A DNA stretch of 45,635 nt, from assembly GCA_013390905.1 (NCBI GenBank), contig JACATG010000009.1:1-45635 (forward strand), given 5' to 3'. The DNA comes from Marine Group I thaumarchaeote (GTDB lineage: Archaea > Thermoproteota > Nitrososphaeria > Nitrososphaerales > Nitrosopumilaceae). A program made the position numbers and the translations under genes. Positions within the stretch are counted from its first letter, which is position 1. Each line of letters begins with the position of its first letter. Of this stretch, positions 4,019 to 18,953 are shown one piece after another. The notes under the pieces were generated by a model. It had not been told where the DNA came from and ran no database searches. It worked only from the letters and a program-made list of their open reading frames with translations.

Positions 4019-4369
4019 TTATATTATAGAATTCTTAAAGTCGTTTATTGATGAAAGTGCATTTTTTGTCTCGTGACCAATATCGTGAATAGTAGCGCTA
4101 TTGTATTTTTTCTCAAGATATCGTCCAGCAACTATCATAGGTCCACCTATTGCACAAGTAACACCAGTTGGTTCAGGAACCCATAACATCAAAAATCCAA
4201 TTTTTTGAAGTTTTTTACCGGGTGCAGGAGCTTTCTGGAGAGAGCCTAATGAACTTGTATTAGGTCCTTGATTCATTTTATTGATTTCATTATACAAATT
4301 TGCTCTGCGTTTAGCTGATTCTGTAGATTTTCTTAATTTGTCTAGTCGTGCCTTTAGGGGATCAATCAT
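4019..4369 (-). CDS. Conserved-looking small protein of unknown function
   Basis: A 116-residue protein starting at ATG. The N-terminal third is a basic helix (PLKARLDKLRKSTESAKRR), and the middle holds a hydrophobic stretch LMLWVPEPTGVTCAIGGPMIVAG cut here into IGFLMLWVPEP and AIGGPMIVAG, probably a membrane-associated hairpin. The C-terminal part is polar. I do not recognise a family. It is separated from the DtxR-like gene by a 135-base divergent spacer that carries that gene's TATA element. Confidence 0.55.
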   Translation of the reverse strand: MIDPLKARLDKLRKSTESAKRRANLYNEINKMNQGPNTSSLGSLQKAPAPGKKLQKIGFLMLWVPEPTGVTCAIGGPMIVAGRYLEKKYNSATIHDIGHETKNALSSINDFKNSII

Positions 4370-4969: not shown

Positions 4970-6776
4970 GAAATATTTGAATATCGTTTTGTGATGACGC
5001 GAGATTCATAAGATTTCTTGCAATGTCAGAACGTTTTGGAATTTTTATCTGTCCTTTTTTACCAATTTTTGCTGATGTAACATATTTGTTATTAACATAG
5101 ATATCAGCATGTGTTGAAGTGAATTCTCTGCCAACAGTTAGAAGTAATGCAGTTTTTGATTCTGAATAAGTAAAAGGTATATCATTTGTCATTCTAGATG
5201 AATGGTTAAAGTCTTTTTGGACTACATCAACATGGATTTTAAGAAATTTTTCAATTTCATTAATGTTTGAGCCTCCTTTTCCTATTATTGATGCTATATA
5301 CTGTTCATCTACGAATACTTTTACTCTATTATCAGATAAAATTTCAACTTGTGCATGAGGGTCATATCTTTTGAAAGTTTCTCTCACCTTATCTTCTGCA
5401 AGTTTTTCAATTCCAACTTTTTGAACTCTTTTTGCAATAGGAACAATGACATTTTCTTCTCCAAATGTGTAGATTTCATGTTCCAAGACATTATCTGCAA
5501 AATTTCTGATTTCGATAACAGGTCTTGAAAGATCAGATTCAGTCATTCCTGAAGGAACTTTGACTTTTAATTCCAAGTCATAGACTTTATCAATTCTGCC
5601 ATCTTTTACAAAGACTAGAGTATCTAAGACACTTGGAATTATTCCGAGTTCAATCTTTCCAATAAAACGTTGAATTGCATCTATAGGAGAATTCCCATGA
5701 ACTACTCCAACCATTCCCACACCAGTTAAACGCAAATCAGCAAAGGTTACAAAATCTTCTCGTCTTCTTATTTCATCAAAAATAGTGTAATCAGGACGTA
5801 CAAGTAACAAAATATCAGCACTGTTATCAAAACTTCCATCTAATTTACTATATTGAGTAATTCCAGAATCAACTTGCAAATCACGCGGAGATTCAAAAGT
5901 TTTAACAATTTTTCCTTTTTTATGATAAAAATTTGCAAGTCCAGATGCAAGAGTGCTTTTCCCAGAACCTGGAGCACCAGAAATCACAATTCCTTCAGCT
6001 CTGTCAGAGAAACGTTTCATTAACTCATCAGAAATTTCATAATCTTCAAGAGATAATTTTACGATTGGATGAACAATTGTTATTTCAAAGGATTCAGAAA
6101 AAGGAGGATGTGTGATAGCTATACGATAATTATCATGTTGAATTACAGATGCACCAGTCTTTGAGATTTCAATATTACTTGAATCAGATGCGTGTACCAC
6201 ATCCAAGATTTGTGACGAAATAAACTCCAAATAGTCTTTAGAAAGAATATCATCACTAAGGGTAGTTAATGAAAAATTGCCGGGTTTTCCTTTTTTTGCT
6301 AAAGGATGTTGATTTTCTTTAAGATGAACACTCATTGTCTCAGCATCAAAAAATTTCAGAAATTCTAATGTTTCATCTTTTACAACAAATTTAAGAAATA
6401 CTGTTTCTACACCTTCAGCTTGTGCAACTAGATGTTGAACATTATCTGAAGTGTAAAGAACAGCATCATTTTGTTTAGCCATGTCAATGATAAGAGCATC
6501 AATTCTACCACTATCTGCTAGTTTAATATCATCAGAAGAAGGATGTGATCCTTTCAAAACTATATTCAGCCCATAACTACCAGATAATTCTTTAAGTTTT
6601 TGAATTTTTTCCAACCCTACAAAACCCTGTTCCTTTTTGTTAGACGCTTGAGATTGTAACTCATCAAAGACTACTTGAGGTATTATTATTTCAGAATTTT
6701 TAATTGAACCTCCTTCTATATGTGCAATTAATTGACCATTAATTATAACACTAGTATCAGCAACAATTTTTGACAA
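4956..6776 (-). CDS. PIN domain - PilT-like ATPase - KH domain protein
   Basis: A 606-residue protein of the archaeal predicted-ATPase family that joins a PIN domain to a secretion-type ATPase. The PIN domain (about residues 1-135) keeps acidic positions in VADTS, FDELQ, RIDALIID and TSDN, the usual PIN nuclease set. The ATPase (about 225-430) has Walker A GAPGSGKST and a RPDYTIFDEIRR Walker B-like segment. A KH RNA-binding domain follows near 490-540 (IIGKGGSNINEIEK), then a short C-terminal domain. The combination suggests RNA cleavage or remodelling; the family's physiological role is not established. The gene is single and converges with the DtxR-like gene. Confidence 0.88.
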   Translation of the reverse strand: MSKIVADTSVIINGQLIAHIEGGSIKNSEIIIPQVVFDELQSQASNKKEQGFVGLEKIQKLKELSGSYGLNIVLKGSHPSSDDIKLADSGRIDALIIDMAKQNDAVLYTSDNVQHLVAQAEGVETVFLKFVVKDETLEFLKFFDAETMSVHLKENQHPLAKKGKPGNFSLTTLSDDILSKDYLEFISSQILDVVHASDSSNIEISKTGASVIQHDNYRIAITHPPFSESFEITIVHPIVKLSLEDYEISDELMKRFSDRAEGIVISGAPGSGKSTLASGLANFYHKKGKIVKTFESPRDLQVDSGITQYSKLDGSFDNSADILLLVRPDYTIFDEIRRREDFVTFADLRLTGVGMVGVVHGNSPIDAIQRFIGKIELGIIPSVLDTLVFVKDGRIDKVYDLELKVKVPSGMTESDLSRPVIEIRNFADNVLEHEIYTFGEENVIVPIAKRVQKVGIEKLAEDKVRETFKRYDPHAQVEILSDNRVKVFVDEQYIASIIGKGGSNINEIEKFLKIHVDVVQKDFNHSSRMTNDIPFTYSESKTALLLTVGREFTSTHADIYVNNKYVTSAKIGKKGQIKIPKRSDIARNLMNLASSQNDIQIFLNDF

Positions 6777-14581: not shown

Positions 14582-14734
14582 TTGGTGTACAAATGTGATT
14601 TTTGTGGATCAGCATTTGGAGATAGAATATGTTATTTTTGTGAAAAAAATTGCTGCACGTCTTGTATGACAGATGATAGAACACGTTGTAAGAATTGCTA
14701 TATTTACAAACGAATACTGGGTGGAAGAAACTAG
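14582..14734 (+). CDS. Cys-rich zinc-finger protein, possibly the 5' part of a broken gene
   Basis: A 50-residue ORF from TTG at 14582 (GTG at 14585 is equally possible) with dense cysteines: CDFC, CYFC, CCTSC and CKNC, resembling a B-box or AN1-like double zinc site. It ends at TAG 14732-14734. An overlapping frame beginning at 14673 encodes a two-segment membrane domain. Similar small proteins often join such a finger to a membrane hairpin, so these may be two parts of one frameshifted gene. The cysteine pattern makes this frame more credible than the ATG frame at 14571. Confidence 0.5.
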   Translation: MVYKCDFCGSAFGDRICYFCEKNCCTSCMTDDRTRCKNCYIYKRILGGRN

Positions 14735-14939
14735 TAAAAAAGAACAAGATTGTTTTGGCTTTTGTTGGATTTTTGTGTTGTATGCAGTGTTTCCGGGCCC
14801 TTTAATTCCAGGTTTAGAACCAGGTTTTTATGAAATCTCAATTGCTGCAGCGATACTAATCATGATTCCAATAGGATTGGCCATGTTTTTCGGGTCACTA
14901 AATCCACCAGCATCAGATGTCAAAAAAAGAAAAGACTAA
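14673..14939 (+). CDS. Membrane hairpin protein, probably 3' part of the zinc-finger gene in a shifted frame
   Basis: Up to 88 residues from ATG at 14673. The first 20 or so residues are an off-frame reading of the zinc-finger DNA and unlikely to be native. The rest is a membrane hairpin with YAVFPGPLIPGLEPG as the turn and AAAILIMIPIGLAMFFG as the second segment, ending in a basic tail KKRKD. In the third frame the bases about 14740-14790 read KNKIVLAFVGFL, which would form a better first membrane helix than the present frame. Two frame changes would rebuild a finger-plus-hairpin protein. Confidence 0.45.
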   Translation: MIEHVVRIAIFTNEYWVEETSKKEQDCFGFCWIFVLYAVFPGPLIPGLEPGFYEISIAAAILIMIPIGLAMFFGSLNPPASDVKKRKD

Positions 14940-15054: not shown

Positions 15055-15240
15055 TTATTCGAGTTTATTTTTTTGATACATACTAAGGTTAGATCCCATT
15101 CTTTGCTCATATTCAGAAATTTCTACGAAAAGTTTTTGACCTTCATTCATTAATTCATGTGCTTGTGTAATAGAATCTGAATAATTATTCCAATTCCAAG
15201 TAAGTTTTGTAATTTTTTCATGATTCTTCCAAATATGCAT
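15055..15240 (-). CDS. Small ORF downstream of the sugar-dehydrogenase-like gene
   Basis: A 61-residue ATG-initiated ORF, 28 bases after the stop of the propeller gene on the same strand, so possibly in its transcript. It is hydrophilic with two predicted helices (ITQAHELMNEGQKLFVEI and the C-terminal SMYQKNK). No family recognised. Confidence 0.4.
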   Translation of the reverse strand: MHIWKNHEKITKLTWNWNNYSDSITQAHELMNEGQKLFVEISEYEQRMGSNLSMYQKNKLE

Positions 15241-15267: not shown

Positions 15268-16878
15268 TTAGTTAAGTCTGACTCGAGTCATTTTTCTAAT
15301 TCCAATAATCACAACAGCTGGAACTCCTAGATACATTCCCAAGTTTAGTATGATCATAGATATTCCATATCCCAACACTTCAACTTCTGAATCCATATCA
15401 ACATAATTCAGAATAGATAAAGATGTTATCATTGGAGTAATTACAATCTTTACCATTTCTTTGAATACAGAATTCTCTCTTTCATAATCAGCAATAATTG
15501 GAGAAAATGAATAGTAGAAATCATTGAATATATTCATGAAACTTGTGCCTGATTGTGTTTGTAATAGTGAATTATCCCTTAACTCTCGTAATTGTTGTAC
15601 TTCAGAGGCCATCTCACTACCATATGTTGCAGTTGCAATTAGACAGCCTCCTCCTGTATTTTCTGAGTCAGTAATTTCTGATTCTGTTTCTAGAGATTCG
15701 GATGTAAGGACATTTGTCTCTAAAGAATTTTCAGCAGCAGCTTCTATTGGTAAAATTCTGTAAATCACTCTCTCACCATGAGATACAAGGTAAAGAAACC
15801 CATCTGGGCCTCTTTCAATGTCTGTAATACATCGAAAACCGGTTCCCAGTATTATTTCATCGGTAGAATCATTTTCATTAACTAAATTATCTTGCAAATC
15901 TGGATTAGAAAATACAAATCCGTCTCTATTTTGATTTAATTCAAATTTGTACAAATGTCCATTATTACAATCCCCTACAAAAAGAGAATTATCATAATTT
16001 CTCGTTTCTTTAAAATTTCCAAAATTTATTCCTACAGGTGTAACTACTTTTTCCCAGCTAAATTTTGGATCACCATAAATATAGTCTTCATATCCTGGGA
16101 GGCTATCTATTTCTGATTCTGTTGCAGGGCCCATTATCTTATTCCAACCACTGTTAAATTTGTCTGGAATTAAATTAATTTCATCAAAATCATCATCACC
16201 ACTTTCAGTAGCCCATAGATTTCCAGTAAATGGATCTATTGCAAGACCAAAACTATTTCGAATTCCCATAGCAAGATAGGGGCCTTCAGGATCTACTCGT
16301 AAAATCACACTAGTATCCATATAGTCTTTAGTTTCTGGAGGATAAAGTTCTTCAAGTAATTTGTTTTGAAGTGGACCATACTTTCCAGTATCTCCAACTA
16401 CTGCATACACTTGGTCATCTAAACCTGTAACCATAGCTCCACTATTATGATATTCATTAGAGGGTAATTCTTTTAGTAAAACAGGATTTACTAATTTCTC
16501 ACCATTCCAATCATACTTGTAAATTCTATTTCCTAATTGTTCTCCATCTGAATCAACTTCTGTGAAATAAAGATAAACAGTAGCCCCAACACTTGTAACC
16601 CCTAACAAACCACTTTCTCTAATTGGGTTTACATCTATTTCTAAAACAGGCTCTTCTTGGATTATTCCATCTCGAATCAAACTAACTGCGCCTAGTTTTT
16701 GTAAAAGTAAAATATCATCACCTACAAACGTCATTGTAGTATACCCCCAACCTATATCTCTGGCATATTCTTGAAGAACCAAATTTTCATCATACAATAC
16801 AGGTTCAGCAAATATGCTTGGAACTATTAACCCAATCATCAAAACAAATACCATTGCAATAATTATTACAGGTTTCAT
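15268..16878 (-). CDS. Exported glucose/sorbosone-dehydrogenase-like propeller with CFI-box C-terminus
   Basis: About 536 residues. A signal peptide (VIIIAMVFVLMIGLIVPSIFA) leads into a six-bladed propeller of the PQQ-dependent GSDH family, with signatures HNSGAMV, GIRNSFGLAIDP, NLWATESGDDDFDE and DIERGPDGFLYLVSHG. After residue 390 comes a low-complexity linker and a CFI-box-type tail (GGGCLIATATYGS then ELRDN) with two membrane segments and a basic end, likely a membrane anchor and processing tail. I chose the ATG at 16878 because AAGGAAG lies 8 bases before it; an ATG at 16896 is the alternative. Oxidation of a sugar outside the cell is the family role; whether PQQ is available here is unknown. 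Confidence 0.82.
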   Translation of the reverse strand: MKPVIIIAMVFVLMIGLIVPSIFAEPVLYDENLVLQEYARDIGWGYTTMTFVGDDILLLQKLGAVSLIRDGIIQEEPVLEIDVNPIRESGLLGVTSVGATVYLYFTEVDSDGEQLGNRIYKYDWNGEKLVNPVLLKELPSNEYHNSGAMVTGLDDQVYAVVGDTGKYGPLQNKLLEELYPPETKDYMDTSVILRVDPEGPYLAMGIRNSFGLAIDPFTGNLWATESGDDDFDEINLIPDKFNSGWNKIMGPATESEIDSLPGYEDYIYGDPKFSWEKVVTPVGINFGNFKETRNYDNSLFVGDCNNGHLYKFELNQNRDGFVFSNPDLQDNLVNENDSTDEIILGTGFRCITDIERGPDGFLYLVSHGERVIYRILPIEAAAENSLETNVLTSESLETESEITDSENTGGGCLIATATYGSEMASEVQQLRELRDNSLLQTQSGTSFMNIFNDFYYSFSPIIADYERENSVFKEMVKIVITPMITSLSILNYVDMDSEVEVLGYGISMIILNLGMYLGVPAVVIIGIRKMTRVRLN

Positions 16879-16927
16879 ACTATTCACTTCCTTCATATTG
16901 TTATATTATTTCAGTAATTTCCTCTTG

Positions 16928-17610
16928 TTAAATTCTAATACAGTTAATTCTATCGAGGTAAGTAAGTTTCATACAATTGACTATTAATGCTTCCTCAATT
17001 CCATAATTCAATAAACCATTAATGACATCAGTTGCATTATATTTCTGAATTTGTATGGAATTTCTTTTGGTAAATTGGAATCTATCATCAATTAGTTTTG
17101 AATAGTTATCAAAGTAGTATCTGGAACTGACTGCCTCACTAATCCCTTTACGAGATAGTTTTTCAATTCCCTGTGCGATTTCAGAATTATTTGTGATTTT
17201 AGAAATTTCATTTGTGATTCTAGTTTTCCCCTTGTAATTTGTCTACTTAGATAGTCTGTTTTTGTTTTATCTCGAAATGTATCGTATTGGGCAATTCTAT
17301 ATTTTGTTGCAGTGTATGAATCTCTAATGCCGTGACATATAGTAATCTGATTGCCAAAAGTGTCTAGCAGAATTACAGTTTTGTTATTTTCTGATAGTAG
17401 GGATAATCCTTCAGTTGAGATGTATCCCTTTCCTTGAAGAACTATTCTATCATATGGCATGTCTTTGACAAACCATGATTCTGTTTCAGGTTTTGAGAAT
17501 GGATTGTAGTTATTTTTGAGAATTATTTTGGAAGGATTTACAGAAATGGAATGTCCATAGCCTTTGAGGAATTTTACATTAAAGTGAGGTTTATGACTTT
17601 TTAGAGTCAA
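16928..17610 (-). pseudogene. cas1: Frameshifted and truncated cas1 homologue
   Basis: Bases 17092-17610 encode the N-terminal beta domain of Cas1 and the first helices: KGYGHSISV, WFVKDMPYDRIVLQGKGYIS, LLDTFGNQI and the TATKYRIAQYD helix. Near 17190 the frame shifts; the continuation reads SEIAQGIEKLSRKGISEA, then YYFDNYSKLIDDRF, then ATDVINGLLNYG, the helix that precedes the catalytic Glu in Cas1. Homology stops at about 17000; the His and Asp/Glu metal ligands and the rest of the C-terminal domain are missing. The style matches thaumarchaeal stand-alone Cas1/casposase proteins, from memory. No cas2, PolB, CRISPR array or terminal repeats are nearby. The start is TTG overlapping the upstream stop. 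Confidence 0.8.
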
Positions 17611-17882
17611 GTCAAGTCATTGTCATTCCAAGATAACCTGAATTTTTCCTCAATTTTTTCAAATTTCATTGTCCCACCTTTTTGAAAAGCCATCTTGTGA
17701 GTCTTTCCTTCCAAATCAACTATTTCGATCGTACAACTATCCCTCATACATTCAAAATTCACAGGAAACTTAAATGTCCTTTTCCATTCATCAAGTTTGA
17801 GATCGAAATATTGTGCAGTGTAAAGACTTCCCATGAATTTACATATTTTAAAATTAGAAAAAGGTTTTCTAACAAAAAACAC
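17607..17882 (-). CDS. Unknown protein translationally coupled to the cas1 relic
   Basis: A frame of 91 residues from GTG at 17882, or 75 residues from ATG at 17834, which I slightly prefer because the sequence from GSLYTAQYFDL on looks more protein-like. It is a small beta-rich protein (EWKRTFKFPVNFE, TIEIVDLEGKTHKMAF) with an acidic C-terminus. Its TGA overlaps the TTG start of the cas1 relic by four bases, so the two were once co-translated. I do not recognise the family. It may be an accessory gene of the same lost element. Confidence 0.5.
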   Translation of the reverse strand: MFFVRKPFSNFKICKFMGSLYTAQYFDLKLDEWKRTFKFPVNFECMRDSCTIEIVDLEGKTHKMAFQKGGTMKFEKIEEKFRLSWNDNDLT

Positions 17883-17913
17883 ATTGTCACATCTTTAGTC
17901 ACTGTCACAAATT

Positions 17914-17941
17914 GTAGCCTATAGGGGGGGCTACTATTTTT
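17914..17941 (+). terminator. Hairpin with T-run beside leuB
   Basis: GTAGCC (17914-17919) pairs with GGCTAC (17929-17934) around a G-rich loop, and a T-run follows on the plus strand. Read from leuB (minus strand) the same stem begins six bases after its stop codon but lacks a T-run on that side. It may end leuB transcripts or any antisense transcript arriving from the cas1 side. No plus-strand gene precedes it. Confidence 0.35.
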
Positions 17942-18953
17942 AAAGATTATCTACAATCTGTTTAGTAAATTCAGTAGTAGACATATCTCCACCAATATCT
18001 TTTGTTTTGACACCTGATTTTACCAAATCAAAGATTGTAGATTCTAACTTTCGACCTACTTCAAAACATTTGGAATCATTATGTTTGGCGCCAAGCCAGT
18101 CAAACATCATCTTAATGGATAACAAAAATGATGAAGGATTTGCAATGTTTTGTCCTGCAATATCAAATGCAGCTCCATGAACGGGTTCAAACAATGCAAA
18201 GGAATCTCCAATGTTAGCTGCTGGTGCCATTCCTAATCCCCCTACAACTTGAGATGATTCATCAGATAAAATATCACCAAACAAATTCGTAGTAACTACA
18301 ACATCAAATTCTTGTGGTTGACGGATCAAATTCATCGCACAAGCATCTACATACATTTCCTCAAATGTAATTTCAGGATAATCTTTTGAAACATCAGTAC
18401 ATGCTTTTGCAAATAATCCGTCTGTAATTTTCATAACATTTGATTTATGAACGCATGTCACTTTTTTCTTGGAATTTCTCTGCTTTGCAGTTTCAAATGC
18501 ATACTTTGCAATTCTTTTTGATGCAGCTTTTGAAATTATTCGTAATGCTACTGCAGAATCTCCCACACGAAATTCTTTGCCAGTGTAAAGATCCTCTGTG
18601 TTTTCTCTAACAATGACCATATCAATATCATCACGTAACGCAGGCATATGGGGATATGATTTTGCAGGTCTAATGTTAGCATAAAGATCAAGCATTCTTC
18701 TTAATACAACAATGACATCAGCTGCACTCTCACCAACAGGAGCTTTCAAACATGCATCAGACTGTTTTATCACACTAATGGTCTCATCAGGAAGTGCCTT
18801 TCCTGTATCTTTAAGTGCTTTATCGCCGGCTGACAATTTAGTGATTTCAAATTTCAAATCAAATTTGTCATTAATGGTATTAAGCACAGAAATTGCAGAT
18901 TCTGATATTTCAGGACCGATTCCGTCACCAGTAATTAATGATATTTTATACAT
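17940..18953 (-). CDS. leuB: 3-isopropylmalate dehydrogenase
   Basis: A 337-residue enzyme of the isocitrate/isopropylmalate dehydrogenase family. Visible are the N-terminal ITGDGIGPEI, substrate-arginine region VLRRMLDLYANIRP, RENTEDLYTG, the catalytic KSNVMK lysine region, the metal-binding Asp residues in NLFGDILSDE, and the NAD site EPVHGAAFDIAG. Hydrophobic substrate-side residues and its position directly after leuA favour isopropylmalate over isocitrate or homoisocitrate as substrate. It oxidises and decarboxylates 3-isopropylmalate in leucine synthesis. It is the last gene of the ilvB-ilvH-leuA-leuB series, 33 bases from leuA. leuC and leuD are not in the window. Confidence 0.87.
   Translation of the reverse strand: MYKISLITGDGIGPEISESAISVLNTINDKFDLKFEITKLSAGDKALKDTGKALPDETISVIKQSDACLKAPVGESAADVIVVLRRMLDLYANIRPAKSYPHMPALRDDIDMVIVRENTEDLYTGKEFRVGDSAVALRIISKAASKRIAKYAFETAKQRNSKKKVTCVHKSNVMKITDGLFAKACTDVSKDYPEITFEEMYVDACAMNLIRQPQEFDVVVTTNLFGDILSDESSQVVGGLGMAPAANIGDSFALFEPVHGAAFDIAGQNIANPSSFLLSIKMMFDWLGAKHNDSKCFEVGRKLESTIFDLVKSGVKTKDIGGDMSTTEFTKQIVDNL

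Follow-up and report, generated by a model that had tools for sequence, protein, structure and literature searches.

Probable casposon remnant behind a leuB-type gene of a Marine Group I thaumarchaeote and the passenger genes of its relatives

Directly behind a leuB-type gene on the minus strand of the window (the whole stretch of 45,635 nucleotides of Marine Group I thaumarchaeote DNA that was analyzed here), there is a TIR, followed by a small passenger gene and a broken cas1 gene. The relevant features are given below by position; for related genomes, contigs and loci, we use our own handles (G, C and L numbers, respectively).

14673..14939, plus strand: host gene, the far-side marker of the insertion, which adjoins leuB at empty sites
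15055..15240, minus strand: 61-aa ORF, tentatively a probable scrap of an older leuB-array element, with a DNA match in the G049 array
17000-17610, minus strand: cas1 relic overall, frameshifted and 3'-truncated
17000..17200, minus strand: second part of the cas1 relic in a shifted frame, with the catalytic Glu kept, ending after NYG (Cas_Cas1 E 5e-5)
17191..17610, minus strand: first part of the cas1 relic, corresponding to casposase residues 1-140, with a TTG start (Pfam Cas_Cas1 E 4e-9)
17607..17834, minus strand: passenger gene, 75 aa, the stop of which overlaps the cas1 start by 4 nt
17868..17942, minus strand: left TIR, TAAAAATAGTAGCCCCCCC...TTTGTTAGA, about 75 bp (inner end judged by eye)
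17941..17955, minus strand: the one 15-bp target copy that is left, TGTAGATAATCTTTA, with the position and length of the leuB duplications in relatives
17940..18953, minus strand: leuB-type gene (isopropylmalate/isocitrate dehydrogenase-like), the 3' end of which is the integration target; present in 83 of 95 genomes

A casposon is a jumping element that inserts itself by means of a Cas1 enzyme. The CRISPR adaptation machinery is believed to derive from such elements, of which, to our knowledge, few have been described. Both frames of the relic are recognizable as Cas1. The first frame (17092-17610, minus strand), which still codes for 172 residues, matches positions 35-122 of the Pfam Cas_Cas1 profile (E 4e-9), and the shifted frame (16929-17209, minus strand) matches positions 153-195 (E 5e-5, over the model cut-off); the PF01867 (Cas1 superfamily) cut-off is passed in both, and the Cas1 models of PADLOC and NCBIfam concur. 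This profile search had been suggested in the initial annotation of the locus, which described an N-terminal part of Cas1, a frameshift near 17190 and further Cas1 up to VINGLLNYG, a description that holds: the frame changes at about 17190-17200, DNA homology to relatives stops at 17001, directly past NYG, and the residues encoded beyond it (16929-17000) are not Cas1. The homology had been described as ending before the remaining metal ligands; in the alignment, the His and both Asp are lost, whereas the first ligand, Glu, is retained, leaving the relic short of the full Glu, His, Asp, Asp set of the Cas1 superfamily. A genome-wide search returned no Cas1 matches beyond these two frames.

Among 95 genomes of the same genus, the closest kin of the relic are proteins of ~340 aa along with numerous fragments, some of them N-terminal stubs 30-75 residues long. 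The intact casposases are 60-74% identical to the relic across the initial ~140 aa (74% in the case of G049), and all catalytic residues are kept in them, save for the replacement of the last Asp by Glu in three. The best solved-structure match of the intact relative from G049 is PDB 6opm (E 4e-28), which we take to be the Methanosarcina mazei casposase; CRISPR Cas1 chains rank lower. A second Cas1 group in the genus, with proteins of 410-450 aa, shows only ~25% identity. In a phylogenetic tree that included the relic sequence with an X at the frameshift, the relic clusters with the casposases of G049, G037, G076, G035, and G051 (the branch beside G049 is weakly supported); despite its truncation, it groups with the compact, ~340-aa Cas1 of pPolB-bearing elements, that is, the family 1 casposase type. 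CRISPR-type Cas1 proteins are present in some congeners, and conceivably, the relic could be what is left of a CRISPR-Cas adaptation module from which the array and the partner genes have disappeared. However, in the tree, its place is among the casposases linked to pPolB, at a great distance from the CRISPR-type sequences, a casposon TIR sits at the leuB stop, and the genome carries no second Cas1, so that we consider such an origin extremely improbable.

The left TIR is intact, and in the window, TAAAAATAGTAGCCCCCCC directly abuts the leuB stop codon, in agreement with the insertion into 3' ends of conserved genes that characterizes family 1; the same TIR subtype occurs also in G033 (L166) and G090. 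Of the 47 genomes inspected at this locus, 20 have a casposon TIR exactly at the leuB stop and the rest have none there, a proportion that is no estimate of frequency because the sample is biased, some of the loci having been picked on account of a cas1 hit close to leuB. At clean empty sites (G006, G022, G023, and G045), the equivalent of the host gene at 14673-14939 is located only 3-6 bp behind leuB, compared to 3.0 kb in the window. Pattern scans of the 11-18 kb portion of the window yielded no right TIR, and no second 15-bp target copy was found in the window, where only the leuB-side copy is present; hence the insertion is one-sided. There is no match to the protein-primed polymerase (pPolB, PF03175) in this genome either, and with the right TIR, the second target copy and the polymerase all missing, the element is a dead remnant rather than a complete casposon.

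Complete elements were found in relatives. In G035, the leuB insertion is a 5.9-kb casposon with pPolB and Cas1, bounded on both sides by TACTGACAATCTCTA; perfect 15-bp duplications surround the elements at leuB in G035, G049, G032, and G056, a leuB-type duplication is present in G076 as well, and pPolB is encoded in the elements of G001, G004, G010, G035, and others. A single EF-2 insertion, in G004, was seen among the relatives. The comparison of related genomes that had been recommended earlier thus uncovered intact casposases, TIRs, and 15-bp duplications in congeners, and the suggestion of a fossil casposon is upheld because a TIR lies at the leuB stop, relatives carry pPolB/Cas1 casposons with 15-bp duplications at this site, and the relic groups with casposases. 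We conclude that the relic is very probably the decayed left end of a family-1-lineage casposon at a leuB-type 3' end, with an occupied passenger slot. In this reading, a Cas1-type casposase placed the element at the 3' end of the leuB-type gene, leaving the gene intact and duplicating 15 bp. The left TIR survives, together with a single passenger gene and ~200 codons from the start of the frameshifted casposase; the polymerase is gone, as are the catalytic half of the casposase, the right TIR, and the other copy of the duplication, in an order of loss that we infer rather than observe.

Previously, it had also been considered that the gene might represent an unrecognised Cas1 derivative devoid of the nuclease half, in which case a functional, truncated protein could be retained for DNA binding. 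The passenger ORF is indeed intact, and 172 residues can still be read in the first cas1 frame. Against this stand the frameshift, the end of the homology within a helix region, the low and even DNA identity of the relic to its relatives, and the different end points of cas1 fragments in other genomes, where the decay products are N-terminal stubs and cas1-polB deletion joints; neither a conserved truncation point nor purifying selection on the truncated frame was seen across species. Retention of a truncated protein is, accordingly, very unlikely, and judging from its sequence, the window cas1 is a dead casposon remnant and not a new Cas1 enzyme.

In G049, leuB is followed by an array (L089, G049:C10, 7479-11610) of three casposon-derived units in tandem, with lengths of 2.8, 0.92, and about 0.4 kb, parted by the 15-bp target repeat TACAGATAATCTCTA or its one-base variant. 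The first unit encodes a passenger (HAD hydrolase) and cas1 codons 1-73 fused to a polB fragment. Fresh insertions at the leuB end would presumably displace older ones outward, as in a CRISPR array. The 61-aa ORF at 15055-15240 of the window matches DNA within two TIR-bounded units of this array and is probably left over from an earlier insertion. The adjacent GSDH-like gene (15268-16896) is a doubtful candidate for casposon cargo, with no TIRs near its homologues in G083, G005, and G070; its C-terminal ~130 aa (GGGCLIATATYGSEMASEVQQLRELRD...) recur at 60-80% identity in very many otherwise different proteins, in nearly all congeneric genomes.

Several other loci deserve mention. On contig G049:C41, the possibility of a complete 21-kb casposon between two inward TIRs was dismissed, the interval being filled with ordinary host genes. 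About 30 bp resembling the leuB 3' end precede two casposon TIRs located away from leuB, at L087 (G049:C41, about 4150-4195) and L088 (about 5360-5400), a longer stretch than a 15-bp duplication would give. At L151 (G073:C49, about 5313-6032), cas1 residues 1-127 and polB are joined in a single 273-aa open frame, an internal deletion joint within a 2.65-kb TIR-bounded element. Two cas1 5' stubs at L098 (G016:C28, 7209-7316 and 19689-19796) are in opposite orientation and share the same end point and the same downstream sequence, as would be expected from the copying of a unit with such a stub. At L180 and L205 (G131:C2, 101293-104529), two divergent casposase genes are separated by about 1.1 kb; both have a passenger and a TIR of their own, and they probably represent two adjacent casposons.

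The gene preceding cas1 in the window had been noted to overlap it by four bases, and it does: the passenger stop and the cas1 TTG start share TTGA (17607-17610). A start at GTG 17882 is less convincing, as the protein probably begins at ATG 17834 (75 aa), where its paralogues begin. This protein is 93-94% identical in G049 and G032, G048 contains partial copies, and a distant paralogue (~37%) is encoded in most genomes of the genus. The conjecture that a two-gene unit had existed here holds in a wider form, a passenger ORF overlapping the casposase start being a recurrent architecture. Upstream of cas1 copies, homology ends at the cas1 start codon, and the interval between the TIR and cas1 is either empty (for example, in G037, G045, and G051) or usually occupied by one ORF. 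We collected 45 occupied slots, 30 within the genus and 15 from other genera of the family, the latter added after the pattern had been noticed. By BLASTP, the 45 passengers fall into 35 families, with types including GNAT, HAD, SnoaL, GSDH (in G016, a gene other than that at 15268-16896 of the window), AbiV-type HEPN, DUF5615, cyclic phosphodiesterase, and TPR; one passenger sequence, blended from two copies, only hints at HNH.

When the longest ORF with a stop between -60 and +20 was taken, the stops of all 45 passengers lay at -15 to +11 nt relative to the cas1 start. Some do not overlap cas1, and in 23 of the 45 the overlap is exactly 4 nt, compared to 5 of 160 co-directional gene pairs in leuB neighbourhoods; because the copies are related, the p value of this excess (1e-13) is only indicative. 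The cas1 start often reads WTGACTCTTAA, which contains one stop for each of the two other frames: a TGA that ends at +4 and a TAA that ends at +11, the latter being the stop of five passengers. About 25 nt ahead of several passenger start codons, the inner TIR contains the motif TTTGTTGGAAA...TTATAAT (identified by eye), which looks like an archaeal promoter. The slot comprises an inward TIR that probably carries a promoter, zero or one variable ORF, and cas1 starting at the ATGA or TTGA on the passenger stop, with the casposase probably translated by re-initiation after the passenger.

The passenger cassette DNA of the window is about 95-98% identical in G032, G049, and G048, as against 89% identity between the window and G049 in the host DNA around leuB. 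In the four genomes with the near-identical window-type cassette, the TIRs differ, and so does the cas1 body, which can be compared in one of them; near-identical cassettes beside differing TIRs suggest that cassettes have been swapped between casposons. Between the window and G032, the block of 92-100% identity begins 252 bp ahead of the cas1 start and extends 68 bp past it; identity drops to 68-80% in the outer TIR and mostly 55-75% deeper in cas1, and the GNAT passenger shared by G073 and G030 displays a similar block pattern. Altogether, in two pairs, the cassette blocks are 95-100% identical and break off sharply on both sides, at the inner TIR and inside cas1 within ~70-110 bp of its start. 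In G049:C41, a window-type passenger is found behind a TIR but without cas1; orientation rules out a simple deletion that would join passenger to cas1 in one element of this kind. The simplest reading of the block-wise identity is that passengers were probably swapped via homologous recombination in the inner TIR on one side and in the conserved ~70-110 bp that open cas1 on the other.

Alternatively, there might have been no exchange at all, each casposon lineage having acquired its own terminal gene a single time, with the 4-nt overlap reflecting ordinary operon compaction. Stop-start overlaps are common in operons, most passengers were found only once, and the TPR passenger pair (G030/G067) diverges evenly, without breakpoints. 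This scenario is nevertheless rather unlikely in view of the two pairs with sharp breaks, the occurrence of the window passenger beside different TIRs in four genomes, and the rate of 4-nt overlaps far over the local background. Returning to exchange, we tentatively propose, as a model with a somewhat less than even chance of being correct in full, that thaumarchaeal casposons possess a slot reserved for passengers, bounded on one side by a TIR with a promoter and on the other by the casposase, that single genes are exchanged in it as cassettes between elements through inner TIR/cas1 5' recombination, and that the cas1 start couples casposase synthesis to the passenger.

As described in the main text of PMC4046053 and PMC6563490, family 1 casposons encode a compact Cas1 and a protein-primed PolB, have TIRs and insert at 3' ends of protein-coding genes, the named thaumarchaeal protein-coding targets being EF-2 and phosphoribosylamine-glycine ligase; leuB is not among the targets named there, nor is a cas1-coupled passenger slot described in these texts. 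A literature search on leuB-type casposon targets and miniature casposons, covering main texts, retrieved nothing relevant. The leuB elements resemble the Nitrosopumilus family 1 casposons (NitAR1-C1, NitAR2-C1, and NitNF5-C1/C2; main text of PMC4046053 and PMC6563490) in the compact Cas1 without an extra domain, the TIRs, the ~15-bp duplications, the insertion at 3' ends of protein-coding genes and, in intact relatives, pPolB; they differ in the target, which is leuB in place of EF-2, and the window copy, as a remnant, lacks pPolB, the right TIR, and the catalytic half. The casposases studied in vitro (NitAR1 and Aciduliprofundum boonei, PMC6614799; Methanosarcina mazei, PMC6977970) belong to the same superfamily as the relic, and the catalytic residues are kept in its intact relatives, whereas the window copy cannot be active. 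Like the tandem casposons of Methanosarcina and Np. adriaticus NF5 (PMC9939771 and PMC6563490), the units of the G049 array are arranged head-to-tail with only target duplications between them, but the array differs in its sub-kilobase units (0.92 and 0.4 kb) and the cas1-polB deletion joint.

Taken alone, the window feature is an ordinary dead remnant; noteworthy are the leuB target, the small-unit array and, above all, the passenger slot of the relatives. The leuB end is a recurrent target alongside the published EF-2, with empty sites for comparison, and offers many independent integration events for defining casposase recognition. The small tandem units separated by TSDs form a natural counterpart to a CRISPR array. 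How casposons take up and trade single genes would be explained by the passenger slot, as would the frequent start of the casposase with TTG or ATG inside the stop codon of its neighbour. If the exchange model is true, casposons would be gene-shuffling vehicles, with an outcome comparable to that of integrons.
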